Positions 19,022 to 39,911 of a stretch of DNA of 42,400 nucleotides are shown here, one piece after another; position 1 is the stretch's first letter, and every line of letters begins with the position of its first letter. The DNA is from Bacillus sp. 522_BSPC (GTDB lineage: Bacteria > Bacillota > Bacilli > Bacillales > Cytobacillaceae): the NCBI RefSeq assembly GCF_001076885.1, contig NZ_JVDT01000287.1:1-42400 (forward strand), given 5' to 3'. The notes under the pieces were generated by a model that ran no database searches, was not told the DNA's origin, and worked only from the letters and a program-made list of their open reading frames with translations. Both the position numbers and the translations under genes were made by a program.

Positions 19022-19405
19022 ATGTTTGATTATACTGTAGAAACCAGTAAAAATATTAGTGAGGCAATCTATAGCTTGGAAGAAAATTTAAAAGAAGAAA
19101 AGTTTGGTGTATTATGGATGTTTGATATAAAAGATAAACTTCAAGAGAAAGGACTAGAGTTTGAATCTGACTATAAAGTTTTAGAGGTTTGTAACCCACA
19201 TGAAGCACAAAGAGTGTTAAAGGAGAATTTGTTAGTTGGTTATTTCTTGCCATGTAAAATGATTGTTTATACCGACCAGGGAAAAACTAAAATTGGCATG
19301 CCGAGACCAACAGCTTTAATTAACTTAGCAAATAATGAAGAAATCAAAAAACTTGCACAAGATATTGAGGTCCGTTTAATTAGCTGTATTAATAAAAGTA
19401 TATAA
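19022..19405 (+). CDS. DUF302 family protein
   Basis: 127 residues matching the DUF302 pattern: FDYTVETSKNISEAIYSLEENLKEEKFGVLW at the start, then VCNPHEAQRVLKE, LPCKMIVYTDQGKTKIGMPRP. Cysteines occur at VCNP and LPCK. DUF302 proteins have no firm general function. AAGGAGTG precedes the ATG. It is the last gene before the sulfur island and divergent from the ferritin-like gene. Confidence 0.88.
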   Translation: MFDYTVETSKNISEAIYSLEENLKEEKFGVLWMFDIKDKLQEKGLEFESDYKVLEVCNPHEAQRVLKENLLVGYFLPCKMIVYTDQGKTKIGMPRPTALINLANNEEIKKLAQDIEVRLISCINKSI

Positions 19406-19917: not shown

Positions 19918-19975
19918 TTCACAAAATTAATTTATATTTTATAATACCCATACAGGTATAAACCTATCGGGGTAT
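19918..19975 (+). promoter_or_regulatory. promoter with tandem CstR-type operators for the CoADR fusion gene
   Basis: TTCACA (19918-19923), 16-bp spacer and TATAAT (19940-19945) form a strong sigma-A promoter. ATACC-CATACA-GGTAT (19944-19959) overlaps its -10, and a second site, AAACC-TATCGG-GGTAT (19960-19975), abuts it and covers the start point. The arms match five further sites in front of the sulfur genes, so repression by CstR with release by persulfides is the natural reading. Confidence 0.75.
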
Positions 19976-20025
19976 ATTCAAGGGTATTGATTGGAATTAA
20001 ATTAAAAATAGTTGGAGGGAATAAC

Positions 20026-21987
20026 ATGTCACAGAAACTCATTATAGTAGGTGGAGTTGCAGGTGGAGCAACAGCTACAGCAAGGTTAAGAAGAATAAGT
20101 GAAGATGTAGAAATTGTTCTTATAGAAAGGGGAGAATATATTTCATTTGCTAATTGCGGACTGCCTTATTACATTGGAGAAACAATCAAAGACAGAAGCA
20201 AATTATTAGTCCAGACCGTTAAAGGAATGTCGAATCGATTTAATCTGGACATTCGGAATTTTAGTGAAGTATTAAGCATTAATCCCAAAAATAAAAAAGT
20301 CACAATTAAGAATTTACAATCAGGGAAAGAGTATGAGGAATCCTATGACAAGTTATTATTGTCACCAGGGGCTAAACCAATCGTCCCACCAATTCCAGGA
20401 TTAAGTGAAAATGAGGTATTATTTACATTAAGAAATATTCCAGATACAGATAAAATAAAAAAATATGTTGATACCAATCAACCTAAAAAGGCGATAGTAA
20501 TTGGCGGAGGATTTATTGGAATTGAAATGGCTGAAAACTTGTTGGAAAGAGGAATAGAAGTAACGATTATTGAAATGGCAAAGCAAATTATGGCTCCAAT
20601 TGATTTTGAAATGGCTAGTATTTTACACGGAAATATAAAAGAAAAAGGTGTGAATCTAATATTAGAAAACGGGGTCCAAGCATTTGCTAATAAGGGAAAA
20701 AAAGTTATTCTCTCTGATGGAACAGAAATAGAAACCGATATGACCATTCTTTCTATAGGTGTTAAACCGGAAAATGAATTAGCTAAGGTAGCAGGACTTG
20801 AACTAGGAGAGCGTGGAGGAATTGTTGTAAATGAATACCTTCAGACTTCTAATGAGGATATTTATGCTGTCGGGGATGCAGTTGAGGTGGTGGATTATAT
20901 TAGCGGGAAAAAAGCTATGATTCCACTTGCAGGACCGGCTAACCGACAAGGCAGAATTGCGGCAAATAACATGATGGGGAAAAAGGAGAAGTATCATGGC
21001 ACATTGGGAACTTCCATTGTTAAAGTATTTGATTTAACAGTTGCGACTACTGGCAATAATGAAAAGACGCTAAAAAGCTTAGGAGTTTCATATGAAGTTG
21101 TTCATATTCATCCAAGTTCTCATGCAGGGTATTACCCAGGAGCAGCACCAATTGCTTTAAAATTAATCTTTGATAAAGAAACAGGAAAAATATTTGGTGC
21201 ACAAGCTATAGGAGCAGATGGTGTTGATAAACGGATTGACGTAATTGCAACAGCAATAAAAGGTGGATTAAAGGTGAATGATTTGACTAATTTAGAATTA
21301 TCTTATGCTCCCCCATATTCTTCAGCAAAAGACCCTGTTAATATGGCTGGCTATGTAGCTTCTAACATAATGGAAGGTGAATTAGAAATGGTTCAGTGGC
21401 ATGAAATCGATGAGATTGTTAAAGATGGAGGGTTATTGATTGACGTTCGCGAGCCAATGGAACGGGAATTTGGATATATTAAAGGTTCCTTGAATATTCC
21501 GTTAGATGAATTAAGGAACCGATTAGATAGTCTTCCAAAAGAACAAACGATATATGTCAGTTGTCAAGTTGGATTAAGGGGATATCTGGCAAGCAGGATA
21601 TTAAAAAATAGTGGATATACTGTTAAAAATGTTGATGGAGGTTTTAAAACGTATTCCTCTGTATTTAAAAGCGTTATAAACAAAACGATTGAAACGAAAA
21701 CAAATCAACTTGAGGAATCAGAAGATATTGATGAAATACCGGTGAATGCTGTTGTTGATGTTACTGGTTTATCTTGCCCAATGCCGATTGTAAAACTAAA
21801 AAAAGCGATTGAGCAGTTGGATAGCGGTCAAATATTAGAAATCCATGTGACAGATAAAGGTGCATTAAATGATCTGCCTGCATGGTCAAAAAATGCCGGA
21901 CATATTCTTTTAAAAACAAAACAAGAGGAAAAAGTGATTAAATTTTGGATTAAAAAAAATGAAGATAAATTAAAGGGAAGCATTTAA
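20026..21987 (+). CDS. CoA-disulfide/persulfide reductase - rhodanese - TusA triple fusion
   Basis: Three domains in 653 residues. Residues 1-445 are an FAD/NAD(P)H CoA-disulfide reductase with dinucleotide motif GGVAGGATATARLR and active C44 in SFANCGLPYYIG. Residues about 460-550 are a rhodanese with LIDVREPMERE and C513 in VSCQVGLRGY. Residues about 575-650 are TusA-like with C584 in GLSCPMPIVKLKKA. The expected job is to reduce CoA persulfide or other persulfides and pass sulfane sulfur between the three thiols. ATG 20026 has GGAGGG upstream; an earlier frame start has no signal. It is monocistronic between tandem CstR-type sites and a terminator. The two-domain reductase-rhodanese form is known from bacilli. 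Confidence 0.93.
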   Translation: MSQKLIIVGGVAGGATATARLRRISEDVEIVLIERGEYISFANCGLPYYIGETIKDRSKLLVQTVKGMSNRFNLDIRNFSEVLSINPKNKKVTIKNLQSGKEYEESYDKLLLSPGAKPIVPPIPGLSENEVLFTLRNIPDTDKIKKYVDTNQPKKAIVIGGGFIGIEMAENLLERGIEVTIIEMAKQIMAPIDFEMASILHGNIKEKGVNLILENGVQAFANKGKKVILSDGTEIETDMTILSIGVKPENELAKVAGLELGERGGIVVNEYLQTSNEDIYAVGDAVEVVDYISGKKAMIPLAGPANRQGRIAANNMMGKKEKYHGTLGTSIVKVFDLTVATTGNNEKTLKSLGVSYEVVHIHPSSHAGYYPGAAPIALKLIFDKETGKIFGAQAIGADGVDKRIDVIATAIKGGLKVNDLTNLELSYAPPYSSAKDPVNMAGYVASNIMEGELEMVQWHEIDEIVKDGGLLIDVREPMEREFGYIKGSLNIPLDELRNRLDSLPKEQTIYVSCQVGLRGYLASRILKNSGYTVKNVDGGFKTYSSVFKSVINKTIETKTNQLEESEDIDEIPVNAVVDVTGLSCPMPIVKLKKAIEQLDSGQILEIHVTDKGALNDLPAWSKNAGHILLKTKQEEKVIKFWIKKNEDKLKGSI

Positions 21988-22011
21988 CTTCTATTTAATC
22001 AAAAATACTTT

Positions 22012-22049
22012 AAAAAGCATGCCTCCTATTTTTGGAGTCATGCTTTTTA
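22012..22049 (+). terminator. terminator of the CoADR fusion gene
   Basis: AAAAAGCATG (22012-22021) pairs with CATGCTTTTT (22039-22048), with inner CTCC/GGAG pairing and a T-run. Confidence 0.87.
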
Positions 22050-22194
22050 TCTTTCGCAAAATCATCTGTCAAAGTTAACAGTAAGGGTATTGGGGAATAT
22101 AATTAATAGCTAATGTTTTTTTATACTCATTCTTTGTTGGAGGATATAGTCTTAGTTCCTATAAAATTTATGATTCCTGCCATTTAATATTTTT

Positions 22195-22371
22195 TTAAGA
22201 AACATGATTGCTTTCAACAAACGTTTCAAGAGCTGGATGATATTCTTTTTGATAATGATTATCAGGACAAGACTTTTTTACTATTGAATTCATAAAAGCT
22301 GTTTTATCCGTTACTAAAGTTTTCTTACATTCAGGGCACTTTTCGCTAAATAAAGTTTTAAATAAACTCAT
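22195..22371 (-). CDS. small zinc-ribbon-like protein, 58 residues
   Basis: ATG at 22371 has GGAGGTG upstream at close spacing on the reverse strand. The product starts MSLFKTLFSEKCPECKKTL and contains CPEC (C12, C15) and a later SCPDNH (C35, H39), giving a CxxC...CxxxH set that could bind zinc or iron-sulfur. No membrane segment. It lies convergent to the CoADR fusion gene and before the IS element. Family not recognised. The ribosome binding site and motif spacing support a real gene. Confidence 0.68.
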   Translation of the reverse strand: MSLFKTLFSEKCPECKKTLVTDKTAFMNSIVKKSCPDNHYQKEYHPALETFVESNHVS

Positions 22372-22596
22372 AATGGCACCTCCACAATAACCTTTAAATC
22401 ATATTGTAATACTTGGTATTATAAATGAGTAGTTAAAAAAACTCAATGGATTGAAATCCAAAAGTTAAAATAATAGGAGCATTCCTGTTAGAAGGATTTT
22501 CGGGGACTTGAACAAAAAGAGCCCTCTTGGTATGATGCGGGGTGTCAAATCGTCGACGAAATGACCCCTAATTTGTTAACCAAGGAGGACTCCATA

Positions 22597-23862
22597 ATGG
22601 ATTTTAAACAAAACCAGAAAATAAATCAAGTCACTGAAAAAACACTTGTTGTCGGAATCGACATTGCCAAGCAGACACACTACGCCTGCTTTGTGGATGA
22701 CCTCCAAAAATCATTTTCTGTTTCTCAAACTGGTGATGGATTCGAGCTTTTCTATCAACGTGTTCTCGCTGCAATGAAAGAGAACGAAAAAACGGAAGTC
22801 ATCATTGGGATTGAACCAACTGGCCATTACTGGCTCAATTTAGCCTATTTCCTTGAGGAACGCGGTATTCCCCTAGTAATGGCAAACCCTATGCATGTCA
22901 AACGTTCAAAAGAGTTGGACGACAATCTGCCAACCAAACATGACCGTAAAGATGCGCTGGTAATCGCTCGTCTTGTAAAGGATGGACGCTTTAGTTATCC
23001 GCGAATCCTCAAAGGGATGGAAGCCGAACTTCGTGCTGGTTCAACATTTCGAAGTAAATTGACAGAGGAACTAGGAGCTGTCAAAAACATGATGATTCGT
23101 TGGTTAGATCGCTATTTTCCTGAATTTACTCAGGTGTTCCCATCATTCGGAAAAATGGCAATGGCTGTTCTTGAATGTACTCCATTTCCAAGTGATCTTC
23201 ACCAAAAACAACCCGATGAAGTGTTATCACTTTACCGGGAAATCGAGGGGCTCAAATCCCCCCAAAGACCGAAAGCAATACGCCTGATAGAGGTCGCAGC
23301 TAGTTCTATCGGTGTAACAGAAGGACGTGAGATGGCCCGTATTGAAATCGCCACACTCGTCCGACGTTACCACCAGCTAGAAGAAGATATCGAATGTATT
23401 ACGGAACGCTTAGTTGAACTTGTAAAAACGTCTGTAGAGTACCAATGGCTATCAACGGTACCAGGACTTGGAGATACCACAATCGTTGACCTATTAGCTG
23501 AAATCGGAAGCTTTTCACACTATGAAGATCCACGCCAACTAATCAAACTCGCGGGATTAACGTTACGTGAAAATTCCTCCGGCCTGCACAAAGGGCAAAA
23601 ACGTATCTCCAAACGGGGTAGAAGAAAGCTGCGTGCCCTCCTGTTCCGAGTAATGATGCCGATGGTCCGTCACAACGAAGCCTTTAAAAAGCTACACGAG
23701 TATTACACAAACCGTCAGGTTAATCCGTTACGCAAGAAACAATCCATTGTGGTTCTATGCGGTAAGCTATTAAAAGTATTACATGGAATTAGCACGAAGC
23801 ACAAAGCGTTTGACGCACAGCGAATGATGAGGGATATTCCTAGTCTCGCAGAGGCTGCATAA
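22597..23862 (+). CDS. IS110-family transposase
   Basis: 421-residue DEDD recombinase. The N-terminal RuvC-like domain shows D22 (VVGIDIAK), E73 (IGIEPTGHYW), D116 and D119 (KHDRKDA). The C-terminal transposase_20 domain has LSTVPGLGDTTIVDLLAEIG and the Ser-containing RENSSGLHKGQKRISKRG segment, the site of the catalytic serine in IS110 enzymes. AAGGAGG precedes ATG 22597; an earlier in-frame start at 22561 lacks a signal. Codon choice is less AT-biased than the neighbours, consistent with transfer. Appears intact. Confidence 0.94.
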   Translation: MDFKQNQKINQVTEKTLVVGIDIAKQTHYACFVDDLQKSFSVSQTGDGFELFYQRVLAAMKENEKTEVIIGIEPTGHYWLNLAYFLEERGIPLVMANPMHVKRSKELDDNLPTKHDRKDALVIARLVKDGRFSYPRILKGMEAELRAGSTFRSKLTEELGAVKNMMIRWLDRYFPEFTQVFPSFGKMAMAVLECTPFPSDLHQKQPDEVLSLYREIEGLKSPQRPKAIRLIEVAASSIGVTEGREMARIEIATLVRRYHQLEEDIECITERLVELVKTSVEYQWLSTVPGLGDTTIVDLLAEIGSFSHYEDPRQLIKLAGLTLRENSSGLHKGQKRISKRGRRKLRALLFRVMMPMVRHNEAFKKLHEYYTNRQVNPLRKKQSIVVLCGKLLKVLHGISTKHKAFDAQRMMRDIPSLAEAA

Positions 23863-24190
23863 GTCCCTATATCCCCTTAAATAGACCTAGACAACAGGAT
23901 GACACGGAGAAGCTGGCACTATTTTTTCCATTCGACCTTGAGTCCCTAAAGGAGCTTCGCTAGCCTCTGCCTTATGACTAGACCGAACGAAGGAATGTAG
24001 GCACTTAGATGCCCAGAGACATGGGAGGGTACGTCATCATAAGTTACGCAGAGATCCATTGTGCATCGCATAATTTCCTATCACTACTTTCCACCATTAT
24101 CCAGTAGTGACCGCGTAGCGTACCCCTATGATGGAATAGTTTCACATATTATGAAAATACTGTAGGGAACTTTGTCGAAAAATATTTTTT
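23863..24190 (+). ncRNA. candidate guide (bridge/seek) RNA region of the IS
   Basis: Non-coding 3' part of the element, where IS1111-type members encode their guide RNA. Visible pairings are TCACTAC (24081-24087) with GTAGTGA (24104-24110), GGGTACG (24027-24033) with CGTACCC (24119-24125), and CATCATA (24035-24041) with TATGATG (24127-24133). The last two cross, so they are alternatives or a pseudoknot. The RNA call rests on family knowledge; boundaries are not defined. Confidence 0.5.
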
Positions 24191-24350
24191 TGACACCGTA
24201 CCAATGGCACAAACCCTTGGTACATCAATATTTATAGAGGGAGGTAGTAACAGCAATTATACTTATTTGATATTATCAAGGTTTGCAAATGCTTGTGCTC
24301 TTGAGTAAGAAGATGTCCGGTGATTGAGTAATAAAAAACAAAAAGGAGTG

Positions 24351-24377
24351 TTGACAAAATACCTATTGGGGTATAAT
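24351..24377 (+). promoter_or_regulatory. promoter with embedded CstR-type operator
   Basis: TTGACA (24351-24356) and TATAAT (24372-24377), 15 bp apart, enclose and overlap ATACC-TATTGG-GGTAT (24359-24374). The operator fills the spacer, so a bound repressor would block polymerase. It drives the Cys-less rhodanese gene and probably cstR. Confidence 0.8.
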
Positions 24378-24428
24378 ATAGATTTTGTCAGTTATTCCTG
24401 CCTCTTTCATTTAGGAGGAAAGATTCAT

Positions 24429-24779
24429 ATGACTATTGTTATTTTAAGTTTTATCATTATTGGTTACTTTATCTTTAGAAGGAATATCCCAATAATTGGG
24501 GTTCCACAAATAAATAAAAAAGATATTGAATTAAGTATGTTGAATGTTGTAGATATAAGAGATTATAATGTTTCTTATAAAAGCCCTATACAAGGTGCGA
24601 TTAACATTCCAGTTTCTTATATAAATAGGCATTACACAGATATATCAAAAAGCGATCTGATTGTAGTAGCTTCGAATCGCTTGGAAAAGAATGTAGGAGT
24701 TCGTTTATTACGCCAAAAAGGTTTCAAGATAGTCGGATACATCCTTTTCGATGAGTATGAAATGGGAGAACATAGGTAA
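24429..24779 (+). CDS. membrane-anchored rhodanese-fold protein lacking the catalytic Cys
   Basis: 116 residues from ATG 24429 (AGGAGG upstream). One N-terminal membrane helix (TIVILSFIIIGYFIF), then a short linker (RRNIPIIGVPQI) like that of the active anchored rhodanese at 25991, then a degenerate rhodanese domain (VVDIRDYNVSYKSPIQGAINIPVSYI). Where active forms have VIC-x-SG, this has VVASNRL, with Ala81 in place of Cys. It therefore cannot form the persulfide. A scaffold, sensor or sulfur-partner role is possible. It is the first gene of the cstR unit. The frame upstream to 24324 runs through the promoter and is rejected. Confidence 0.82.
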   Translation: MTIVILSFIIIGYFIFRRNIPIIGVPQINKKDIELSMLNVVDIRDYNVSYKSPIQGAINIPVSYINRHYTDISKSDLIVVASNRLEKNVGVRLLRQKGFKIVGYILFDEYEMGEHR

Positions 24780-24828
24780 CTATAGGAGACAAGTTAAAAA
24801 GTAATTATTTGTTAAGGAGGGTAATCAC

Positions 24829-25092
24829 ATGGAGTACAATGAGCAAATGAAAAATAGAGTAAAACGTATAGAAGGCCAACTTAGAGGAATTTTAAGGATG
24901 ATGGAAGAAAACAAAGACTGTAAGGATGTTATAACTCAGCTATCTGCAACACGTGCTGCTATTGATCGGACAATTGGTGTTGTGGTTAGTTCTAATTTAG
25001 TAGAGTGTGTGCGCAATGCAGAAGAAAATGGAGAAAAAAACACAGAAGATTTAGTAAAAGAAGCTGTAAATCTGCTTGTGAAAAGTAGATAA
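24829..25092 (+). CDS. cstR: persulfide-sensing repressor CstR (CsoR family)
   Basis: 87-residue all-helical CsoR-family repressor. The cysteines are C31 (KDCKDVITQLS) and C60 (SSNLVECVRNA), the positions of the two sensing cysteines of S. aureus CstR. The copper-binding His of CsoR proteins is Asn56 here, so this is the persulfide rather than the copper type. CstR is known to form di- to tetrasulfide links between subunits when exposed to sulfane sulfur, and then to leave its operator. AAGGAGG precedes the ATG. The seven ATACC-N6-GGTA[T/A]-type sites in this window are its likely targets, including one before its own unit. Confidence 0.94.
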   Translation: MEYNEQMKNRVKRIEGQLRGILRMMEENKDCKDVITQLSATRAAIDRTIGVVVSSNLVECVRNAEENGEKNTEDLVKEAVNLLVKSR

Positions 25093-25124
25093 AAATAAAA
25101 GGGTTGACACCCACTTTTATTTTT
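25091..25124 (+). terminator. cstR terminator overlapping the next promoter
   Basis: AAAAATAAAAG (25091-25101) pairs with CTTTTATTTTT (25114-25124). The loop holds the TTGACA of the tusA promoter. Confidence 0.5.
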
Positions 25125-25149
25125 ATTACTATTATACCCATAGGGGTAA
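25104..25149 (+). promoter_or_regulatory. promoter and CstR-type operator of the tusA unit
   Basis: TTGACA (25104-25109), 17-bp spacer and TACTAT (25127-25132) form the promoter. ATACC-CATAGG-GGTAA (25134-25149) follows the -10 and covers the probable start point. Confidence 0.7.
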
Positions 25150-25178
25150 AGGTAAATGATGAAAGGAGAGTTAAAAGA

Positions 25179-25406
25179 ATGAATATAGATAAATTGTTAG
25201 ATGCAAAAGGATTGGCATGTCCAATGCCAATTGTAAAAACAAAGAAGGCAATAAATGAATTAACTGCTGGTCAAGTATTAGAAATCCATACTACTGATAA
25301 AGGTGCAAAGAACGATCTCACTGCTTGGGCAAAATCGGGTGGACATGAGCTACTAAAATATGAAGAAGCGAATGATGTATTAAAGTTTTGGATTAAAAAA
25401 GGTTAA
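25179..25406 (+). CDS. tusA: TusA-family sulfur carrier protein
   Basis: 75-residue single-domain TusA-like sulfur carrier. The sulfur-carrying Cys is C14 in AKGLACPMPIVKTKKA, followed by GQVLEIHTTDKGAKNDL and a hydrophobic end (DVLKFWIKKG). GAAAGGAG precedes ATG 25179; the longer frame to 25104 crosses the promoter. In E. coli TusA feeds 2-thiouridine synthesis, but here the setting points to persulfide transfer among the island's rhodaneses and reductase. Very close in sequence to the TusA at 28934, suggesting duplication. Confidence 0.92.
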   Translation: MNIDKLLDAKGLACPMPIVKTKKAINELTAGQVLEIHTTDKGAKNDLTAWAKSGGHELLKYEEANDVLKFWIKKG

Positions 25407-25424
25407 ATTTTTTTGTTTATAAAT

Positions 25425-25440
25425 ATACCCATACAGGTAA
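25425..25440 (+). promoter_or_regulatory. CstR-type operator before the DsrE-family gene
   Basis: ATACC-CATACA-GGTAA, 10 bases of its arms and all 6 of its centre agreeing with the site at 19944 except the final T/A. No clear -35/-10 pair was seen. Confidence 0.65.
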
Positions 25441-25469
25441 GGGTGACTGATACATGAGGAGGAACTATA

Positions 25470-25949
25470 ATGACAGAAAAGAAAAAAACAACAATTGTAT
25501 TATTTAGTGGCGATTATGATAAAGCAATGGCAGCTTATATCATTGCGAACGGGGCAGCGGCGTATGATCATGAAGTAACCATTTTTCACACGTTTTGGGG
25601 ACTAAATGCCTTGCGAAAAGATGCAGATATTCAACTGAAAAAAGGCTTCATGGAAAAAATGTTTGGCAGAATGATGCCAAAAGGTGCAGATAAAATGGGG
25701 CTTTCAAAAATGAACTTTGCTGGTTTTGGTCCTAAAATGATTAAAAATGTGATTAAAAAACACAATGCAATGCCACTTCCAGATTTAATCGAAATGGCAA
25801 GAGAACAAGATATAAAGCTTGTTGCCTGTACGATGACAATGGATTTATTAGGACTTCAAAAAGAAGAACTGTTGGATAATATTGAATATGCAGGTGTTGC
25901 TGCTTATTTGGGTGATGCAGAAGATGGAAATGTAAACCTATTTATCTAA
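25470..25949 (+). CDS. DsrE/DsrF/DrsH-like family protein (YrkE-like)
   Basis: 159 residues of the DsrE2 type. It starts KTTIVLFSGDYDKAMAAYIIANGAAAYDHEVTIF, has a central insert (KKGFMEKMFGRMMPKG), and the likely sulfur-binding C120 in VACTMTMDLLGL. DsrE-type proteins accept and pass on sulfane sulfur. Corresponds by family and neighbours to B. subtilis YrkE. GAGGAGG precedes the ATG. A CstR-type site lies just upstream, and an inverted repeat (25956-25963 with 25967-25974) separates it from the next gene. Confidence 0.9.
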   Translation: MTEKKKTTIVLFSGDYDKAMAAYIIANGAAAYDHEVTIFHTFWGLNALRKDADIQLKKGFMEKMFGRMMPKGADKMGLSKMNFAGFGPKMIKNVIKKHNAMPLPDLIEMAREQDIKLVACTMTMDLLGLQKEELLDNIEYAGVAAYLGDAEDGNVNLFI

Positions 25950-25955
25950 ATCAGT

Positions 25956-25974
25956 AGGGGATTCTTCCCTACAT
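25956..25974 (+). other. intercistronic hairpin
   Basis: GTAGGGGA pairs with TTCCCTAC around a 3-nt loop, between the DsrE-family and rhodanese genes. There is no T-run, so it is more likely an mRNA processing or stability element than a terminator. Confidence 0.4.
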
Positions 25975-25990
25975 AAAGGGAGAGATAATT

Positions 25991-26356
25991 TTGGAATATC
26001 TAAATTATATAATAATTGGGCTACTGTTAATTTTTATCATCAGACGATTCATTCCTACATTAGGTGTAAGACAGATTACAGCATTAGAGCTACGGGATGA
26101 GTTAAAGGATAAAAATAAACAATTTATTGATGTCCGTACTCCTGGGGAATATAGAGTAAACAATATTAAAGGATTTAAAAATATTCCACTTCAACAAATT
26201 ATGCAAAAAGCGGAGAAAGAAATCTCAAAAGATAAAGAAGTAATTGTTATTTGCCAAAGTGGAATGAGAAGTCAAAACGCAATTAAAATGTTAAAAAAAT
26301 TAGGATATACTAAAGTGACCAATGTAAAAGGCGGAATGAACGCTTGGAGATCATAA
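25991..26356 (+). CDS. membrane-anchored rhodanese
   Basis: 121 residues, TTG start at 25991 with AAGGGAGAG upstream. One N-terminal helix (YIIIGLLLIFIIRRF), then a full rhodanese domain with QFIDVRTPGEYRVNNI and the catalytic C88 in VICQSGMRSQNA, ending KGGMNAWRS. Sulfur transfer at the inner membrane face is inferred. Its anchor and linker (IPTLGVRQI) resemble those of the Cys-less protein at 24429 (IPIIGVPQI), so the two are probably paralogues. The next rhodanese begins 12 nt after it. Confidence 0.92.
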   Translation: MEYLNYIIIGLLLIFIIRRFIPTLGVRQITALELRDELKDKNKQFIDVRTPGEYRVNNIKGFKNIPLQQIMQKAEKEISKDKEVIVICQSGMRSQNAIKMLKKLGYTKVTNVKGGMNAWRS

Positions 26357-26368
26357 GGAGGCAAAAGC

Positions 26369-26665
26369 ATGAAACAATTAACTGCAAAAGAAGTAGAGAA
26401 ACTTTTAAGAGAAGGTAAAGTGTTAAATATTATTGATGTTCGAGAAGTTGATGAAGTTGCAACTGGTAAGATCCCAGGAGCCATTCATATCCCACTAGGG
26501 TTAGTAGAATTCCGTATGCATGAATTAGATAAATCTAAAGAATATATCATGGTTTGCCGTTCTGGTGGAAGAAGTGGTCAAGCAAGTCAATTTCTCGAAG
26601 ATCATGGATTTAAAGTAATAAATATGACTGGTGGAATGCTTGCATGGGAAGGCGAGACGAAGTAA
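26369..26665 (+). CDS. single-domain rhodanese
   Basis: 98-residue cytoplasmic rhodanese with IIDVREVDEVATGKIPGAIHIPLG and active-site C63 in MVCRSGGRSGQAS, ending MTGGMLAWEG. The CRSGGRS loop is of the six-residue sulfurtransferase type. AAGGAGGC precedes the ATG. It is co-transcribed with the anchored rhodanese 12 nt upstream and lies before a CstR-type site. Confidence 0.93.
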   Translation: MKQLTAKEVEKLLREGKVLNIIDVREVDEVATGKIPGAIHIPLGLVEFRMHELDKSKEYIMVCRSGGRSGQASQFLEDHGFKVINMTGGMLAWEGETK

Positions 26666-26683
26666 ATATTTTCGGTTAATCAA

Positions 26684-26699
26684 ATACCCGATGGGGTAA
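26684..26699 (+). promoter_or_regulatory. CstR-type operator before the TusA-rhodanese gene
   Basis: ATACC-CGATGG-GGTAA, ending just upstream of the gene's ribosome binding site. No convincing promoter hexamers seen. Confidence 0.65.
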
Positions 26700-26718
26700 A
26701 ATGGGAGGCTTTAATAAG

Positions 26719-27294
26719 ATGGAATCATTAAAAACAGATTTTTTATTAGATGCAAAAGGGTTAGCTTGCCCAATGCCAATCGTAAGAACAAAAAAAGCAA
26801 TGAATGATTTACAAGCTGGTCAGGTCTTAGAAGTTCAAGCAACAGATAAGGGCTCAAAAGCTGATATTCAAGCATGGGCTAATAGTGCTGGTCATCATTA
26901 TCTTGGCACAATTGAAGAAGACAATGTATTAAAACATTATTTAAGAAAATCATCTAATGATGCTTCAATTGAAAGAAAACATCCCAATGTAACTAGCAAT
27001 GAAGCACTTGAAAAGAAGCTAGAAACGAATGAAAATATCGTGGTTCTTGATGTAAGGGAAGAAGCTGAATATGCATTTAATCATATACCTAATGCGGTTT
27101 CGATTCCGTTAGGAGAATTAGAATTGCGTTTAAACGAATTAAAAGCAGATGATGAAATCTATGTGGTATGTCGCACAGGTAACCGTAGTGATCTTGCTGC
27201 TCAAAAGTTAGCTGAAAAGGGTTTTGATAATGTGATTAATGTGGTTCCAGGCATGAGTGCTTGGACAGGAAAATCGGACTCTTTAATCAAATAG
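26719..27294 (+). CDS. yrkF: TusA - rhodanese fusion (YrkF-like)
   Basis: 191 residues. TusA domain at residues 1-75 with C17 in AKGLACPMPIVRTKKA; rhodanese at about 95-190 with VLDVREEAEYAFNHI and C151 in VVCRTGNRSD. The linked carrier and sulfurtransferase suggest direct hand-over of sulfane sulfur. Same architecture as B. subtilis YrkF and comparable with S. aureus CstA. ATG 26719 is preferred because GGGAGG (26703-26708) lies 10 nt before it; ATG 26701 overlaps that signal. Downstream are two decayed genes and then the YrkH-like gene. Confidence 0.92.
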   Translation: MESLKTDFLLDAKGLACPMPIVRTKKAMNDLQAGQVLEVQATDKGSKADIQAWANSAGHHYLGTIEEDNVLKHYLRKSSNDASIERKHPNVTSNEALEKKLETNENIVVLDVREEAEYAFNHIPNAVSIPLGELELRLNELKADDEIYVVCRTGNRSDLAAQKLAEKGFDNVINVVPGMSAWTGKSDSLIK

Positions 27295-27304
27295 AGAGAT
27301 TAAT

Positions 27305-27403
27305 ATGGACGAAGTAACAGTATATACTATTTCACGTTGTCCATAGTGTGTTCTGTTAAAAAAATTTTGGCAGAACACACTGTTTCTTTCCTAGAGGTGA
27401 AAG
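27305..27403 (+). pseudogene. glutaredoxin-like gene interrupted at its active site
   Basis: Reads MDEVTVYTISRCP then TAG (27344-27346) then CVLLKKF, so an amber codon stands at the Y of the CPYC motif. A second break in the A/T tract at about 27358-27368 shifts the frame to LAEHTVSFLEVKVE, which still looks glutaredoxin-like. The rest of the gene is missing, replaced by DsrE-family sequence. Non-functional as read. Confidence 0.72.
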
Positions 27404-27738
27404 TTGAAACAACAAACAGCAGCAACAGATAAAGAAGTAGCCATTTTCTTTACTTTTGAAGGGTTGAACTTAATTCATAAAAATGAATACAAACAATTAC
27501 CAATGCCTCAAGGCAAAGAACATTTCGCGCAAGGGTGGGTTTGCTAATGCAAATGTACCAGCTACTCCCCGAATTAGTTGCAATGCCCAAGAAATAGGTG
27601 TTAAATTCATTGGTTGCCAAATGACAATGAATGTTATGGGATCAGAAAAGGTGCTTTTGTTGATGGAACTGAAGTAGGAGGAGCAGTAACCTTTTTAGAA
27701 TTTGATAAAGATGCAGACGCAACACTAACTTTTAAAAG
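27404..27738 (+). pseudogene. decayed DsrE2-family gene
   Basis: Pieces of one DsrE2-type protein appear in successive frames: AATDKEVAIFFTFEGLNLIHK..PMPQGKEHF from about 27416, GFANANVP and then GVKFIGCQMTMNVMG in the next frame, and FVDGTEVGGAVTFLEFDKDAD in the third. At least three indels are needed, and the N terminus is lost. The CQMTM motif corresponds to the sulfur-binding Cys segment of family members (compare CTMTM in the gene at 25470). Not functional as read; the piece at 27483-27677 is not a separate gene. Confidence 0.82.
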
Positions 27739-27764
27739 GGTTTATTATTTTTTTAACCAAAAAT

Positions 27765-27780
27765 ATACCGTAGGGGGTAA
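27765..27780 (+). promoter_or_regulatory. CstR-type operator before the YrkH-like gene
   Basis: ATACC-GTAGGG-GGTAA lies 5 nt before the gene start and overlaps the only ribosome-binding-like sequence (AGGGGGTAA), so repressor site and translation signal coincide. Confidence 0.65.
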
Positions 27781-27785
27781 ATGAT

Positions 27786-28913
27786 ATGACTGTTAAAGTT
27801 ATGCAGACAAAAGAAGTAACTAAAAAAGTATTTAATAAAGAAGAATTATTTATTCTAGATGTTCGTAACGAAAGTGATTTTAAGGATTGGAAAATTGAAG
27901 GGGAAAACTTTGATTATTTAAATATCCCGTATTTTGAATTACTTGATGGAGTGGAAGAAATTTTAGAAAAACTTCCTGCTACAAAAGAAATATTAGTTGT
28001 TTGTGCTAAAGAGGGTTCTTCTGTAATGGTGGCAGAGATGCTTTCAGAACAAGGTTTAACTGTTTCTTATTTGCAAGGTGGTATGAAGGCGTGGAGTGAA
28101 CATTTAGAGCCTGTAAAGATTGGGAATTTAACGGAAGGTGGAGAATTACACCAATTTGTTCGCATCGGAAAAGGTTGTCTATCCTATATGGTGATTTCTA
28201 ACGGAGAAGCTGCAATTATAGACGCCACTCGTATGACAGATATTTTTCTAAACTTTGCGAATGAAATGGGAGTAAAAATCACACATGTTTTTGATACTCA
28301 TCTTCATGCAGATCATATTTCAGGAGGAAGAGTCATCGCTGAAAAAACAGGTGCAACATACTGGTTACCTCCAAAAGATGCGACTGAGGTAACTTTTGAA
28401 TACAACGCTCTAGAAGGCGGCAAAGTAGTGACAATCGGAAAAACAGAAATTGATATTCATGCGCTGTACTCTCCAGGTCACACAATCGGTTCTACATCAT
28501 TTGTTGTGGATGGGAAATTCCTTCTGTCAGGGGACATCTTATTTATTGATTCAATTGGAAGACCCGATTTAGCAGGAATGGCAGAAGACTGGGTAGCAGA
28601 TTTACGTGAAAGCCTGTATTCTCGTTACAGAGAACTTTCAGAAGAACTAATTGTACTCCCAGCTCACTTTATGATCATTGATGAACTGAATGAAGACGGT
28701 AGTGTATCAGAAAGATTAGGTACATTGTTTGAGAAAAATCATGGTTTAAATATTGAAGACGAAAATGAGTTTAGAAGACTTGTAACAGAGAACCTACCAC
28801 CACAACCAAACGCTTATCAAGAAATTCGTGAAACAAATATGGGGAAAATTAGTCCAGACTTAGATAAACAACGTGAGATGGAAATAGGACCAAACCGTTG
28901 TGCAGTCCGATAA
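27786..28913 (+). CDS. yrkH: rhodanese - metallo-beta-lactamase protein, persulfide dioxygenase-like (YrkH-like)
   Basis: 375 residues. The N-terminal rhodanese domain (about 5-110) has [14 protein letters not shown] and C73 in VVCAKEGSS. The rest is a metallo-beta-lactamase domain with H172-x-H174-x-D176-H177 in [11 protein letters not shown], later [25 protein letters not shown] and LPAHF, the pattern of ETHE1/persulfide dioxygenases and their relatives. Expected to oxidise or hydrolyse low-molecular persulfides, with the rhodanese passing sulfur on. S. aureus CstB has related domains with the metal domain first. Same architecture as B. subtilis YrkH. The ATG at 27786 directly follows an operator. 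Confidence 0.92.
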
Positions 28914-28933
28914 TTTATAAATAGGAGGAAAAT

Positions 28934-29167
28934 ATGATAATGGAATCAACTAAAGTATTAGATGCAAAAGGGTTAGCTTGCCCAATGCCGATTGTAAAGA
29001 CAAAAAAAACAATGGGAGAGATGGAATCAGGTCAGGTATTAGAAGTTCATACAACTGATAAAGGGGCTAAAAATGATTTAACTGCTTGGGCTAAATCAGG
29101 AGGGCATGAATTATTACAACACGAAGATGAAAACGGAGTGTTGAAATTTTGGATTAAAAAAGGTTGA
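28934..29167 (+). CDS. yrkI: TusA-family sulfur carrier protein (YrkI-like)
   Basis: 77-residue TusA with C16 in AKGLACPMPIVKTKKT and the same hydrophobic end (GVLKFWIKKG) as the TusA at 25179. AGGAGG lies 5 nt before the ATG. It follows the YrkH-like gene by 20 nt, so it is co-transcribed and matches the place of B. subtilis yrkI. A terminator-like hairpin follows before the permease gene. Confidence 0.92.
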   Translation: MIMESTKVLDAKGLACPMPIVKTKKTMGEMESGQVLEVHTTDKGAKNDLTAWAKSGGHELLQHEDENGVLKFWIKKG

Positions 29168-29173
29168 ACTATA

Positions 29174-29201
29174 AGGGGACCAATTAAGGTTCCTTTTTTT
29201 T
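29174..29201 (+). terminator. partial terminator between TusA and the permease gene
   Basis: AGGGGACC (29174-29181) pairs with GGTTCCTT (29188-29195), two G-U pairs, and T-run. It would lower permease expression relative to the genes before it. Confidence 0.7.
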
Positions 29202-29220
29202 CTAAAGAGGGGGGATCTAT

Positions 29221-29997
29221 ATGGATATTAATTTCATCATCACTATTTTCACAATTGGCTTTATCGGTTCCTTTCTTTCTGGAATGTTAGGGATAGGAGG
29301 AGCCATTATAAATTATCCAATGTTATTATATATTCCAGTAATTTTAGGGGTGGGTCATTTTACATCACATGAAGTTTCAGTAATTACAGCCATCCAAGTG
29401 TTCTTTGCGACACTTGGTGGTGTTTGGGCTTATCGTAGTGGCGGATATTTAAATAAAACATTAATTGTTAATATGGGAATTAGCGTTTTAATCGGGAGTT
29501 TTATTGGGGGCATGAGTTCCACTCACATGTCGGATAGTGGAATTAATATCGTATATGGCATTTTAGCTATTATTGCTGTTATTTTAATGTTTGTACCTAA
29601 AAAAGAGATCGATGCTAACCGTTTAGAACAAGTCAAGTTTAATAAATGGCTAGCTGCTTCATTTGCCTTTATCGTAGGTGTGGGGTCAGGTATTGTAGGT
29701 GCGGGAGGAGCATTCTTATTAGTTCCTATCATGCTTGTCCTATTAAAAATACCAACAAGAATGACCATTGCATCATCCTTAGCCATTACACTTATTTCAT
29801 CAATAGGAACTGTCTCAGGAAAAATCTCAACAGGCCATGTACCGATATTGCCTTCTCTTATTTTGGTTGTTGCCAGTCTGATTGCTTCACCTATAGGAGC
29901 TAACGTTGGAAAAAAGGTGAATACAAGGGTCTTACAAGGAATAATGGGAATTTTAATTTTAGCAACAGCAGTGAAGACTTGGATGGAAATATTATAA
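29221..29997 (+). CDS. yrkJ: TauE/SafE family permease (YrkJ-like)
   Basis: 258-residue membrane protein with about eight helices and the TauE/SafE pattern: [22 protein letters not shown] near the start and [23 protein letters not shown] in the second half, an internal duplication. The family moves sulfur-containing anions such as sulfite, thiosulfate or sulfoacetate. In this place (as YrkJ, and TauE in cst operons) export of sulfite or thiosulfate made by persulfide oxidation is the likely job, by inference. GAGGGGGG precedes the ATG. Confidence 0.92.
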
Positions 29998-30361: not shown

Positions 30362-31714
30362 ATGGATTTTGATACGGTCACGATTAGTAGATTGATTACA
30401 GCAATGACCCTGCTTTTTCATATAATCTTTGCGACACTTGGGGTAGGAGTACCATTGTTTATTTCAATAGCTGAATTAGTCGGTATTAGAAAACAAGACA
30501 AGCATTATGAATTGCTAGCGAAAAGATGGTCAAGAGGCTTTGTAATAACTGTTGCAATTGGAGTAGTGACTGGAACAGCCATTGCTCTACAGTTATCTTT
30601 AGTCTGGCCAAACTTTATGCAGCTTGCAGGGAATGTAATTGCATTGCCGTTATTTATGGAAGTTTTTGCGTTTTTCTTTGAAGCTATTTTCTTGGGGATT
30701 TATTTATATACTTGGGATCGGTTTAAAGGGAAGTATACACATTGGCTATTAACGCTACCGGTCGTTATCGGTGCGGGGATGTCTGCGGTCTTTATAACGA
30801 CAGTAAATTCGTTTATGAACTCGCCTAATGGATTTACGATGGTGGATGGGGAATTTGTTGCTGTTAATCCATTAAAAGCAATGTTGAATCCATCATCTCC
30901 AACTAGAATTTTTCACGTATTGGGAGGTTCCTATTTAACTGTAGCCGCTATTTTAGCAACTATTGCCGCAATTGCGTTAATAAGGAATAAAGGTGCTCAT
31001 GAATATCATAAAAAAGCATTAAAAATGACGGTTATTGCTATGTTTACATTTTCGGTAATTACTGCATTAGCCGGTGATGTGTCAGCAAAATATTTAGCAA
31101 AACATCAGACTGAGAAACTAGCTGCCGCAGAATGGCTTTTTGAGTCAGAGGAGAATGCTGATCTTCTCCTTTTTGGATGGTTGAATAAGGATAATGAAAT
31201 CGTTGGAGCGATTCGCGTACCAGGATTTCTAAGCTTTTTAGCACATGGTGACTTTATGAGCGAGGTAACTGGATTGGAAGAAACACCAGAACAGGAAAGA
31301 CCCCCATTAATCATACACTATCTATTTGATTCAATGGTATCTATTGGTTTCTTCTTATTAGGAATTTCCTTTTTATATATTGTTTTAAGGAGGCTTAAGC
31401 GCTGGAATGTGCACAGTAAATTAATGCTTTGGCTACTTGCGATAAGTGGACCACTTGCAATGTTAGCTGTAGAACTTGGATGGCTTTTTGCAGAGCTAGG
31501 AAGACAGCCTTGGATAGTAAGAGGATATATGACGGTTGATGAGGCAGCAACTTCTTCTACTTATATCCTGCATATGTTTTTTCTATTTCTAGCATTGTAT
31601 ATAGTGCTCGGTACATTATTTACGATAACCTTGCGAAAATTATTTAAAGACAATCCAGCTGAAGTGGAGTTAGAGAAGCATTACCCTGAATGGAAAGAGG
31701 GAATTGAAAAATGA
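30362..31714 (+). CDS. cydA: cytochrome bd ubiquinol/menaquinol oxidase subunit I
   Basis: Haem- and quinol-binding subunit of the bd terminal oxidase, which reduces oxygen to water in the membrane. H20 (LLFHIIF) matches the high-spin haem b595 ligand and H185 (RIFHVLGGSY) the b558 ligand of E. coli CydA; the GRQPW motif is near the C terminus. About nine helices; 450 residues with a short Q loop, close to B. subtilis CydA and YthA. ATG 30362 has AGGAGAG upstream; the earlier in-frame ATG at 30344 does not. Its stop overlaps the cydB start (ATGA). First gene of cydABDC. Confidence 0.95.
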   Translation: MDFDTVTISRLITAMTLLFHIIFATLGVGVPLFISIAELVGIRKQDKHYELLAKRWSRGFVITVAIGVVTGTAIALQLSLVWPNFMQLAGNVIALPLFMEVFAFFFEAIFLGIYLYTWDRFKGKYTHWLLTLPVVIGAGMSAVFITTVNSFMNSPNGFTMVDGEFVAVNPLKAMLNPSSPTRIFHVLGGSYLTVAAILATIAAIALIRNKGAHEYHKKALKMTVIAMFTFSVITALAGDVSAKYLAKHQTEKLAAAEWLFESEENADLLLFGWLNKDNEIVGAIRVPGFLSFLAHGDFMSEVTGLEETPEQERPPLIIHYLFDSMVSIGFFLLGISFLYIVLRRLKRWNVHSKLMLWLLAISGPLAMLAVELGWLFAELGRQPWIVRGYMTVDEAATSSTYILHMFFLFLALYIVLGTLFTITLRKLFKDNPAEVELEKHYPEWKEGIEK

Positions 31715-32724
31715 GCTATGAAGTAATTGGGATTACGGTTTTGTGGCTGTTTTTATACGGTTATCTCATTGTAGCATCGATTGATTTTGGAGCAGGTTTT
31801 TTTGCATATTATGCAAAGATTACGAAGCAAGATCATATCATTAATCAAATAATTTCGCGCTATTTATCGCCTGTTTGGGAAGTTACGAATGTGTTTTTAG
31901 TTTTCTTTTTTGTAGGAATCGTCGGTTTTTTCCCATCTACGGCATATTATTATGGATCCGCTTTACTTGTGCCTGCAAGTTTTGGGATTATTTTGCTAGC
32001 AATTCGAGGTTCCTTTTATGCTTTTGAAAATTATGGTTCAAAACAAAGTAATGTTTATATGTTTCTATATGGAGCTACAGGGCTATTCATCCCGGCATCG
32101 TTATCGGTCGCCTTAACGATTTCAGAAGGAGGATATATTTCTGAACAAAACGGTCAAGTTTCGTTAAAGTATTTAGAATTATTTACCAGTCCATTAGCAT
32201 GGAGTATTGTTGCGTTAGCTATTGTTTCTGTTTTATTTATTAGTGCAAGCTTTATCACCTATTATGCATCAAGAGCAAAAGATATAGCAGCACTACTGTT
32301 AGTACGTAAATGGGCATTATTTTGGGCAACACCAACCATTATTATGGCGTTGACAACGATGATTACTTTAAGTCAGAGAAACCAGGTCAACTATGAAAAT
32401 ATGTTGGATTTATGGTGGATATTTGGCTTATCGATGGGCTTTTTCATCATTGGGATTAGCCTATTATATATTGGCAGAAATTATGGCATTGCATTTATTG
32501 CTATTATGCTGCAGTTTCTCTTTGCCTTTTTCGGATACGGAATGGCTAAGTATCCCTATTTACTCTATCCATACATCAATATTGAAGATAGTGTTACAAA
32601 TTCATCTATGGCAATGGCGCTTATAATTGCCTTTATTGGGGGACTTTTATTATTAATTCCTTCTCTAATCTTATTGATGCGCCTCTTTTTATTTGATGCA
32701 GATTATGCCAAAGGAAAAAAATGA
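31711..32724 (+). CDS. cydB: cytochrome bd oxidase subunit II
   Basis: 337-residue membrane subunit with eight to nine helices, partner of CydA. It starts SYEVIGITVLWLFLYGYLIVASIDFGAGFF, typical of the Bacillus YthB/CydB type, and has the WEVTNVFLVFFFVGIVGFFP segment. The ATG overlaps the cydA stop by 4 nt, indicating coupled translation. It lacks motifs beyond the family pattern, as usual for this subunit. Followed by the CydDC exporter genes after 33 nt. Confidence 0.92.
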   Translation: MSYEVIGITVLWLFLYGYLIVASIDFGAGFFAYYAKITKQDHIINQIISRYLSPVWEVTNVFLVFFFVGIVGFFPSTAYYYGSALLVPASFGIILLAIRGSFYAFENYGSKQSNVYMFLYGATGLFIPASLSVALTISEGGYISEQNGQVSLKYLELFTSPLAWSIVALAIVSVLFISASFITYYASRAKDIAALLLVRKWALFWATPTIIMALTTMITLSQRNQVNYENMLDLWWIFGLSMGFFIIGISLLYIGRNYGIAFIAIMLQFLFAFFGYGMAKYPYLLYPYINIEDSVTNSSMAMALIIAFIGGLLLLIPSLILLMRLFLFDADYAKGKK

Positions 32725-32757
32725 AGAATACGCTAAATTATAGATTAGAGGGCTGAA

Positions 32758-38912: not shown

Positions 38913-38946
38913 AAGCCAAAATCCTTTAGTGGACTTTGGCTTTTTT
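38913..38946. terminator. bidirectional terminator after the AlkD-like gene
   Basis: AAGCCAAAATCC (38913-38924) pairs with GGACTTTGGCTT (38931-38942), then TTTTT. It also serves the convergent gene ending at 38945. Confidence 0.8.
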
Positions 38947-39424
38947 AGTCAGACGATTCACTTAAACCTTTCCTAAACCAGAAAGCAAATGTTTTTACAA
39001 GGTATAATATACATAGGTCGATCGTGACAGCAAACCACCAATGCCAGTTTATATCATGAACAAGCTCAGTATGTCTCTCCACTAAAAACATATAAAGATG
39101 CATACCGTTGCAAAAAATTAGATAATGAATCCATTTTCTCATCCAATTCTGCTTTTCTGGATAAAAAAGCATGAAAAAAACAGCGAAAGTTGGCAAAACC
39201 ACATAATAGAGGGAAAAACTCATTTTGGTTGCCTGTTCAAATTCTCGATAAGGAAAACTTACTAACCCTATATTTACTTGGATATATTGAAATATCCAGG
39301 CTGTTGCATGAGCAAACAAAAAAATAATTTGGAAATACCTTTTTTTCTCTTTCGGAATAAATTTAATGAGCAAAAATAAACAAGTAATCCATGAGAAAAT
39401 TAAAATAACTAGTTCTTTATTCAT
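38945..39424 (-). CDS. CBO0543-type small membrane protein
   Basis: 159 residues, five predicted helices, with FSLYYVVLPTFAVFFMLFYPEK and the family motif FLVERHTELVHDINWHWWF near the C terminus. The ATG lies inside the end of the upstream gene (8-nt overlap), so the pair is translationally coupled. Clearly a paralogue of the next gene: FPYREFEQATKMSFS with FLVERHTELVHDINWH aligns to FSFANEFNRSSFT with VIIERHTELVNYISWH. Function unknown. Confidence 0.8.
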   Translation of the reverse strand: MNKELVILIFSWITCLFLLIKFIPKEKKRYFQIIFLFAHATAWIFQYIQVNIGLVSFPYREFEQATKMSFSLYYVVLPTFAVFFMLFYPEKQNWMRKWIHYLIFCNGMHLYMFLVERHTELVHDINWHWWFAVTIDLCILYLVKTFAFWFRKGLSESSD

Positions 39425-39911
39425 TTGTCTCTGTTCCTTTTACCCCTTTTTTAAACCAATGATAATAAGTATGATTAAGAAATAAGGTAACCATAACTGT
39501 TATTAGCGTATAAGATCCATGCCAGCTTATATAGTTCACGAGCTCGGTATGTCGCTCAATGATGACTTCCAGGCAGGTGAAAAAGCCAGCAAAGAGAAAA
39601 TAATAAAAAAAGGTCCCTGTTTTTTTTATTTTTTTCGGGTAATATAAATTAAACATAATTGCTGTTACGGGAAAAAGGAAAAATTCAAAGGTGAAGCTTG
39701 ATCGATTAAATTCGTTTGCGAAGGAGAAAAGCTGAATAGGATAATCAATCATGTTCCATTCCACTGCAAGTAATCCAGCTGGCCAAGTGATGATCTGCAG
39801 AGATAAAAATATCATCCAAGCTTCTCTAGCTTTATTTTTGGGAACAAGAAAGAAAAGGGCAAGGATGCTTATTGCAATGATTCCTATTAAAATCCACCTT
39901 TCCATATTCAT
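39417..39911 (-). CDS. CBO0543-type small membrane protein
   Basis: 164 residues, five predicted helices, with SSFTFEFFLFPVTAIMFNLYYPKK and LEVIIERHTELVNYISWHGSYT, the most typical CBO0543 motif in the set. ATG 39911 has AGGTG 8 nt upstream. First gene of a two-gene unit with the paralogue at 38945. Function unknown; the strongly conserved E-x-ERHTEL motif within helices suggests a specific membrane role. Confidence 0.82.
   Translation of the reverse strand: MNMERWILIGIIAISILALFFLVPKNKAREAWMIFLSLQIITWPAGLLAVEWNMIDYPIQLFSFANEFNRSSFTFEFFLFPVTAIMFNLYYPKKIKKTGTFFYYFLFAGFFTCLEVIIERHTELVNYISWHGSYTLITVMVTLFLNHTYYHWFKKGVKGTETNE

Follow-up and report, generated by a model that had tools for sequence, protein, structure and literature searches.

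The closest described relatives of the locus considered here are the yrkD-yrkEFHIJ clusters of Bacillus licheniformis and Bacillus subtilis and the cst operon of Staphylococcus aureus. In the parts of the published accounts that were available, the sensing of persulfide by CstR-type proteins is presented as the work of a soluble switch with two cysteines: C31 and C60 of CstR become linked by di-, tri- and tetrasulfide bonds (PMC9774590), and the promoters of CstR are derepressed when it is modified by sulfide links (PMC9918477). In B. licheniformis, the repressor YrkD responds both to elemental sulfur and to polysulfide, binds two intergenic regions and governs the whole of its cluster (PMC9918477), and yrkEFHIJ of B. 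subtilis is strongly induced by allicin and diallyl tetrasulfide (PMC6943732). We analysed a stretch of 42,400 nucleotides from Bacillus sp. 522_BSPC (contig NZ_JVDT01000287.1, positions 1 to 42,400; hereafter the window), in which an island of sulfur-transfer genes between 20026 and 29997 is an extended form of the YrkD/CstR-controlled yrk cluster. Since clusters of this kind are known, the island as such matters less than one of its members, a membrane-anchored pseudo-rhodanese without the catalytic cysteine (pRhd), encoded ahead of cstR. This conserved protein looks new: no description of a Cys-less rhodanese beside CstR was found in the literature searched, most subscription journals lying outside the reach of that search. 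An earlier reading of the same DNA, made from the letters alone (the sequence-only reading), had proposed persulfide handling of the yrk/cst type, in agreement with the published behaviour of the B. licheniformis and B. subtilis genes, and had listed the Cys-less fold; it left unnoticed that the lack of Cys is conserved and that pRhd, in most cases, leads cstR under the control of an operator. Nor does it mention the broken glutaredoxin-DsrE pair, the IS110 insertion, the six exact operator-like sites, the hairpin between TusA and TauE or the adjacent cydABCD, all described below.

The pRhd gene (24429-24779, forward strand) was assigned by profile, context and alignment. At E 0.001 the window protein is matched by neither Pfam nor NCBIfam, and 7 of the 51 members of its family match PF00581 individually; the profile of the family (51 sequences, taken from 81 rows) matches the rhodanese domain of PDB entry 3icr with E 6e-7. 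The AlphaFold2 model of pRhd (pLDDT 87) begins with an N-terminal helix, followed by the same order of elements as in the model (pLDDT 90) of aRhd, the membrane-anchored active-type rhodanese of the island (25991-26356, forward strand, PF00581, loop CQSGMRS). A rhodanese fold is thus indicated by profile homology and predicted element order, whereas the loop that follows the central strand lacks the cysteine of an active rhodanese, the window copy having Ala in this column. That loop comprises two residues in the pRhd model (82-83) and four in that of aRhd (88-91), so that, in the predicted structures, the cradle of pRhd looks closed.

The cysteine is replaced throughout the family. Among 104 copies (one from the window, the others from four plasmid loci and from 99 of the 100 regions numbered L070-L169; near-identical copies are included, and not every strong match defined below is among them) the catalytic column holds Ala in 87, Val in 11, Ser in 2, Thr in 2 and Cys in 2, which makes 102 replacements, while aRhd has Cys in 68 of 69 sequences and Phe in the remaining one. 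The following positions divide in the same manner: position 86 is Glu in 99 of the 104 pRhd copies and Arg in all 69 aRhd sequences, position 87 is Lys in 88 of the former and Ser in all of the latter. With Cys changed to Ala and the loop Arg-Ser to Glu-Lys, the loop cannot form a persulfide, and pRhd cannot be a link of a Cys-to-Cys relay through it. In a tree built from the first 40 distinct rows per group (122 rows, 136 kept columns, midpoint rooting) a branch with 100/100 support and a long stem divides the pRhd sequences from their active neighbours, so that a single loss of Cys in their ancestry is the simplest reading, with the caveats that bootstrapping had not converged and that the long branch of the CoADR rhodaneses (CoADR, CoA-disulfide/persulfide reductase) meets pRhd.

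A protein that has lost its catalytic residue could simply be a relict, an old anchored rhodanese that has lost its function and is drifting. The constraint on pRhd is indeed weaker than that on its neighbours (median dN/dS of 0.148, compared with 0.095 for aRhd, 0.094 for CstR and 0.065 for DsrE2; simple Nei-Gojobori counts on ungapped pairs with identity of 75-99.5% and dS of 0.1-1.5), and some six-frame pRhd matches run through stops, although some of these may simply be the stop codon of the gene itself. However, pRhd is under purifying selection: only 3 of the 130 pairs have dN/dS above 0.5 and the other 127 do not, Y64 and R67 are present in all 104 copies, and seven columns (D42, R44, P61, Y64, R67, N88 and R92) are invariant in 67 sequences of a second, named set (taken from 74 rows). 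An operator-like site is also retained in several solitary copies of the gene. A drifting relict is therefore highly improbable; the idea of a decaying gene was rejected as largely refuted by conservation.

The gene is widespread. A pRhd match was obtained in 142 of 193 genomes of the same family at E 0.001 and in 110 of them at E < 1e-12; only the latter are called strong here, the remaining 32 having been left out by hand. In an order-level sample 234 of 397 genomes match the profile at 1e-12, the weakest of them (near 1e-13) being possibly ordinary anchored rhodaneses. A scan of named genomes returned loci in, among others, Neobacillus, Cytobacillus, Mesobacillus, Robertmurraya, Planococcus, Geobacillus and Anoxybacillus (best 80 of 84). 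Viral contigs gave no match with the single window protein as query, a search sensitive to close relatives only. On the strand of pRhd, whatever the distance, the first island-type frame after it is cstR in 79 of the 104 copies, DsrE2 in 5, TusA in 2, aRhd in 2 and an ABC-transporter-like frame in 2, with none in 14. Within 900 bp of pRhd in the 80 named loci, a set that partly overlaps with the 104 copies (e.g. L171 and L076), we found cstR in 47, CoADR in 6, aRhd in 3, DsrE2 in 1 and no such gene in 22; one locus had no pRhd frame. The gap between pRhd and cstR has a median of 13 bp over 95 distinct pairs, and an operator-like motif lies between the two genes in only one of them. Therefore, cstR is probably transcribed from the promoter ahead of pRhd in most of these loci. 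A different order was seen in six Anoxybacillus loci (L224, L229, L238, L240, L241 and L244), where CoADR and a rhodanese follow pRhd in the place of cstR and the operator-like site upstream is kept.

The motif in question, TACC-N6-GGTA, is a candidate CstR operator by its position and repetition. Before pRhd it reads TACCTATTGGGGTA (24360-24373) and falls between the two hexamers of a promoter-like site, TTGACA-17-TAATAT (24351-24379), so that a bound repressor would block the polymerase. Five more exact sites were located by the motif scan ahead of other units of the island, all on the forward strand: one of a tandem before the gene of the CoADR-Rhd-TusA fusion (Rhd, rhodanese) at 19945-19974 (exact at 19945-19958, one mismatch at 19961-19974, with a promoter-like site at 19918-19945), TACCCATAGGGGTA before the free TusA gene (25135-25148, promoter-like site at 25104-25132), TACCCATACAGGTA before DsrE2 (25426-25439), TACCCGATGGGGTA before TusA-Rhd (26685-26698) and TACCGTAGGGGGTA before Rhd-MBL (27766-27779). 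The control by CstR proposed in the sequence-only reading gains support from these six exact sites, which suggest a regulon. As the motif itself was read from the window first, the relatives serve as its test: it precedes pRhd in 83 of 97 cstR-linked loci (shuffle mean 0.28) and in 27 of 49 other loci (shuffle mean 0.18), identical and short upstream stretches having been removed before counting, and it occurs in 6 of 771 control segments of the same loci. In the genome of the window the W-prefixed motif has 39 distinct places (from 61 rows), of which six are in the island and one lies 20 bp before a second CoADR gene on contig C169; five of the 39 have a GGGGTA half, every one of them at these sulfur genes. 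When one mismatch is allowed, the window holds 15 sites compared with 7.74 on average after shuffling (a number as high was reached in 1 of 100 shuffles), a moderate excess only, and promoter-like sites are at chance level overall (40 vs 39.5). The weight thus rests on the exact sites and their positions and not on the mismatch-tolerant count.

The repressor itself, CstR (24829-25092, forward strand), is a member of the CsoR/DUF156 family (PF02583) and of the persulfide-sensing type, with Cys at residues 31 and 60 as counted in its translation. One would argue that it could as well be a metal-sensing CsoR, and that the island answers copper or another metal and not persulfide. CstR and CsoR share this one Pfam family, CsoR proteins are known to use palindromic operators of a similar kind, the NCBIfam matches of the window protein are all sub-threshold, the best being the copper regulator RicR (58.6 bits against a cut-off of 175), and the nearest PDB chains, 7mq1/7mq2, are labelled csoR in the PDB. 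However, C31 and C60 are as in CstR and both align with Cys of 7mq1, 7MQ2 is named CstR in the part of a review that was available (PMC9774590), the genes of the island are sulfur-transfer genes, and the B. licheniformis counterpart YrkD is reported to respond to sulfane sulfur (PMC9918477). A metal-sensing repressor is therefore barely credible at this locus.

We regard it as probable that the window carries a yrk/cst-type regulon held by CstR, whose products handle persulfide, and that pRhd acts in it by contact at the membrane. CstR would keep the regulon off until persulfide or polysulfide, the inducer expected from its homologues, links C31 to C60 and opens it, and the operator-like sites ahead of the units would make the derepression coordinated. 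Sulfane sulfur would then be accepted by aRhd, the single rhodanese, TusA-Rhd, DsrE2 and free TusA; part of it could be reduced by CoADR-Rhd-TusA and part oxidised by Rhd-MBL to sulfite, and TauE may export the product. The multi-step relay of the sequence-only reading is plausible in this form, the order of its steps and the flux through them being predicted, and as a combination it is known already. pRhd would be the first gene product of the cstR transcript, tethered by one N-terminal helix. Positive residues beside a membrane helix mark its cytosolic side (the positive-inside rule); such residues follow the helix of pRhd, and therefore its rhodanese-fold domain is probably in the cytosol. 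There it may dock a partner to the membrane beside aRhd, a place that persulfide may reach, and thereby tune the hand-over of sulfur or the sensing by CstR. Inactive rhodanese domains are considered mediators of protein-protein interaction (review PMC10135228, as far as available). Since pRhd is no link of the Cys relay, and non-catalytic rhodanese domains elsewhere act in contact, the most likely role of pRhd in the persulfide system is that of a non-catalytic membrane subunit for docking or regulation.

Several observations weigh against this reading and should be set beside it. The cysteine is kept in two of the 104 pRhd copies (L167 and L169) and in one of the 67 named sequences (L207, Oceanobacillus salinisoli). 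No island gene follows on the strand in the 14 copies mentioned above, and the motif is absent upstream in 22 of the 49 loci not linked to cstR. In the whole genome the backward control outnumbers the motif itself (70 and 65 vs 30 and 31), therefore only its location is informative, and its standing as an operator comes from place and repetition and not from binding. A CstR-like gene (E 1e-15) is present in 108 of the 110 strong-pRhd genomes; however, 71 of the 83 genomes that lack strong pRhd have one as well, and the stretch read of a second CstR island of the same genome (contig C169) contains no pRhd. From these last two facts it follows that CstR has no need of pRhd as such. This second island (L075, 5360-8679) is composed of CoADR-Rhd-TusA, CstR, DsrE2 and a rhodanese, and has an exact and a one-mismatch operator-like site upstream of CoADR-Rhd-TusA. 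SQR, which is part of the S. aureus-type operon, is not among the identified genes of the window island. Elsewhere in the genome no SQR was recognised among the four flavoproteins examined out of 32 matches, a non-exhaustive search: with NCBIfam three of them hit nothing but a general model, at a score under its cut-off, and the fourth was assessed by eye.

A further point against the preferred reading comes from a comparison of distance matrices over 47 loci, where the highest partial correlation of pRhd is with aRhd (r 0.35, against 0.16 with CstR), which weakly favours aRhd as the partner. aRhd is encoded downstream in 50 of 71 distinct pRhd-cstR loci having at least 5 kb of flank, and it is found in 91 of the 110 strong-pRhd genomes compared with 48 of the 83 others (p 0.0002, uncorrected for kinship). 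Additionally, pRhd and aRhd have in common an N-terminal helix, a similar juxtamembrane R..P..GV pattern and the predicted order of elements. All this would be expected if pRhd were the non-catalytic half of a split two-domain sulfurtransferase, paired with aRhd at the membrane and shaping the active site or the substrate choice of the latter, as in TST and MPST; a class with one inactive and one active domain is described in the available part of PMC10135228. Such a split enzyme seems somewhat unlikely to us, as 19 of the 110 strong-pRhd genomes are without aRhd at E 1e-25, the 48 genomes just mentioned have aRhd without strong pRhd, and the gene nearest to pRhd is usually cstR and not aRhd. 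For the contact role that we prefer, adjacency favours CstR as the partner of pRhd, the distance correlation and the similar anchor favour aRhd, and the present data do not separate the two.

The co-sensor version of the contact role, which we consider unlikely, has pRhd made together with CstR and holding CstR or its charging carrier near the source of sulfane sulfur, where it would gate the signal at the membrane. If true, the cell would sense the flux of sulfur at the membrane rather than the bulk persulfide pool, and a pseudo-enzyme would be the co-sensor of a persulfide repressor. More generally, a membrane-tethered pRhd conserved in more than half of the family genomes (strong in 110 of 193) suggests either a missing part between membrane sulfur chemistry and the repressor or a split sulfurtransferase.

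The remaining genes of the island, all on the forward strand, were identified from the list of open reading frames and Pfam. The first encodes the fusion of CoA-disulfide/persulfide reductase, rhodanese and TusA (20026-21987), assigned by NCBIfam and by its best PDB match 3icr (E 6e-231, residues 2-548). It scores 551.8 bits with TIGR03385, below the cut-off of 578.8, and 403 bits with PRK13512.1, above the cut-off of 394; the reductase and a rhodanese with its Cys, which define the CoADR-Rhd class, are both present and TusA is an addition, the activity being predicted from sequence. After cstR there follow a free TusA (25179-25406, PF01206), a DsrE2-type sulfur carrier resembling YrkE (25470-25949, PF13686), aRhd, a single-domain rhodanese (26369-26665, PF00581, CRSGGRS), the YrkF-like TusA-Rhd (26719-27294, PF01206 and PF00581), the YrkH-like Rhd-MBL (27786-28913, PF00581 and PF00753), a second free, YrkI-like TusA (28940-29167, PF01206) and the YrkJ-like TauE/SafE permease (29221-29997, PF01925). 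Rhd-MBL is a putative persulfide dioxygenase: it matches PDB entries 3tp9, 3r2u, 5ve3 and ETHE1 4chl, and its translation carries THLHADH, PGHT and SGD where the pattern HxHxDH with a later His and Asp was sought. Pfam finds four TusA domains (those of the CoADR and TusA-Rhd fusions and the two free proteins), each with its CPMP cysteine, and the fifth and last TusA match of the genome is in the second CoADR-Rhd-TusA on C169. Five proteins match the Pfam rhodanese family, with a loop Cys in each (CQVGLR, CQSGMR, CRSGGR, CRTGNR and CAKEGS), and pRhd is the sixth rhodanese fold. The inventory of the sequence-only reading, with its open frames, four TusA and six rhodanese domains and a sulfur-binding Cys in every active domain, thus stands; the genes that it named are intact, but their run is interrupted at two places.

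The first is an IS110-type element (22480-24239, forward strand; transposase at 22561-23862, PF01548/PF02371) with GGAG at both edges, which were placed by reading, and it separates the CoADR unit from the rest of the island. It is absent in L070 and L071, therefore the insertion is probably recent. The element includes 377 bases of DNA beyond the transposase. The second place is a stretch between TusA-Rhd and Rhd-MBL (about 27305-27745, forward strand), where three-frame reading revealed what is left of a glutaredoxin gene and of a small DsrE gene, both with broken frames, and a terminator-like hairpin of 19 pairs lies inside (27343-27383). The pair is intact in L006, and in the close relative L071 the same stretch is also broken. 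On the other side of the island's first unit a DUF302 protein (PF03625) is encoded at 19022-19405, forward strand. Its gene stands directly before pRhd in several relatives; there is no exact operator-like site ahead of it in the window, and here it is probably outside the regulon.

Directly after the island comes cydABCD (30362-36212, forward strand), for a cytochrome bd oxidase and its assembly transporter; cydA and cydB match PF01654 and PF02322, and cydD and cydC were recognised by eye from their translations. This oxidase may be tied to sulfide stress and functionally linked to the island. It also raises an alternative in which detoxification is not the purpose of the island: its genes would work in the assimilation of sulfur or in respiration on sulfur compounds, and cydABCD would supply the sulfide-tolerant oxidase. 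The genes have the same position in L070, cydAB lies before pRhd-cstR in L213, L223 and L228, and the CoADR-Rhd part resembles persulfide reductases, some of which are tied to sulfur respiration in the available part of PMC7969121. We find this explanation quite improbable, because the relatives described in the parts of the published accounts considered serve tolerance to sulfide and sulfane sulfur (PMC9918477, PMC5480029), and cydA frames within the examined flanks are limited to the window and the four loci just named. Farther downstream, on the minus strand at 38945-40496, three adjoining small membrane-type proteins of similar size were noticed by eye.

The comparison with known systems places the island among its relatives and sets pRhd apart. 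With the yrkD-yrkEFHIJ clusters of B. licheniformis and B. subtilis it shares a CstR-type repressor first and then DsrE2, TusA-Rhd, Rhd-MBL, TusA and TauE in this order (PMC9918477, PMC6943732, both as far as available). A terminator-like hairpin between TusA and TauE (29173-29196, forward strand, hairpin scan) corresponds to that between yrkI and yrkJ of B. licheniformis (PMC9918477). The window adds a free TusA, the anchored and the single rhodanese, CoADR-Rhd-TusA, pRhd before cstR and the six operator-like sites, and its island is without nreBC, sqr and a separate pdo. The gene list of B. licheniformis, in the part of the paper available, begins at yrkD and names no pRhd (PMC9918477). With the S. 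aureus cst operon (CstR, CstA, CstB, SQR and TauE) the island shares the CstR-type sensor, functions of the sulfurtransferase and persulfide-dioxygenase types, and TauE (PMC5480029). Contrastingly, no SQR was recognised in the island, its functions are spread over more genes, and S. aureus CstR, by the portion of that report considered, likely governs one operon directly, compared with six operator-like sites here.

The sequence-only reading described the island as a combination of cst and yrk parts with added steps and proposed a gene-order search as a check. A similar order recurs in many of the Bacillales loci examined, so the island as a new assembly of these parts was rejected in favour of an extended yrk cluster. 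A nearly identical order is found on a Cytobacillus oceanisediminis plasmid (L006), where pRhd, cstR, DsrE2, aRhd, Rhd and TusA-Rhd are followed by Rhd-MBL, TusA and TauE; it differs in its intact glutaredoxin-DsrE pair, broken in the window, and in having no free TusA after cstR. On a Mesobacillus foraminis plasmid (L009) a cluster headed by cstR precedes the pRhd copy, and a second gene of the CsoR family comes after it. The first enzyme of the window island shares reductase and rhodanese over residues 2-548 with the CoADR-Rhd 3icr, the persulfide reductases 3nta and 6pfz and the CoA-persulfide reductase 8a56, which we take to come from B. anthracis, Shewanella, Archaeoglobus and Enterococcus, respectively, and adds a C-terminal TusA. 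Finally, pRhd has counterparts of a kind in the non-catalytic rhodanese domains of TBC1D23 and in the inactive domains of TST and MPST, which, in the parts of the reports considered, use the rhodanese fold for contact or for shaping an active site (PMC7274447, PMC10135228). It differs from all of these in being bacterial, single-domain and membrane-anchored, and in adjoining the gene of a persulfide sensor.

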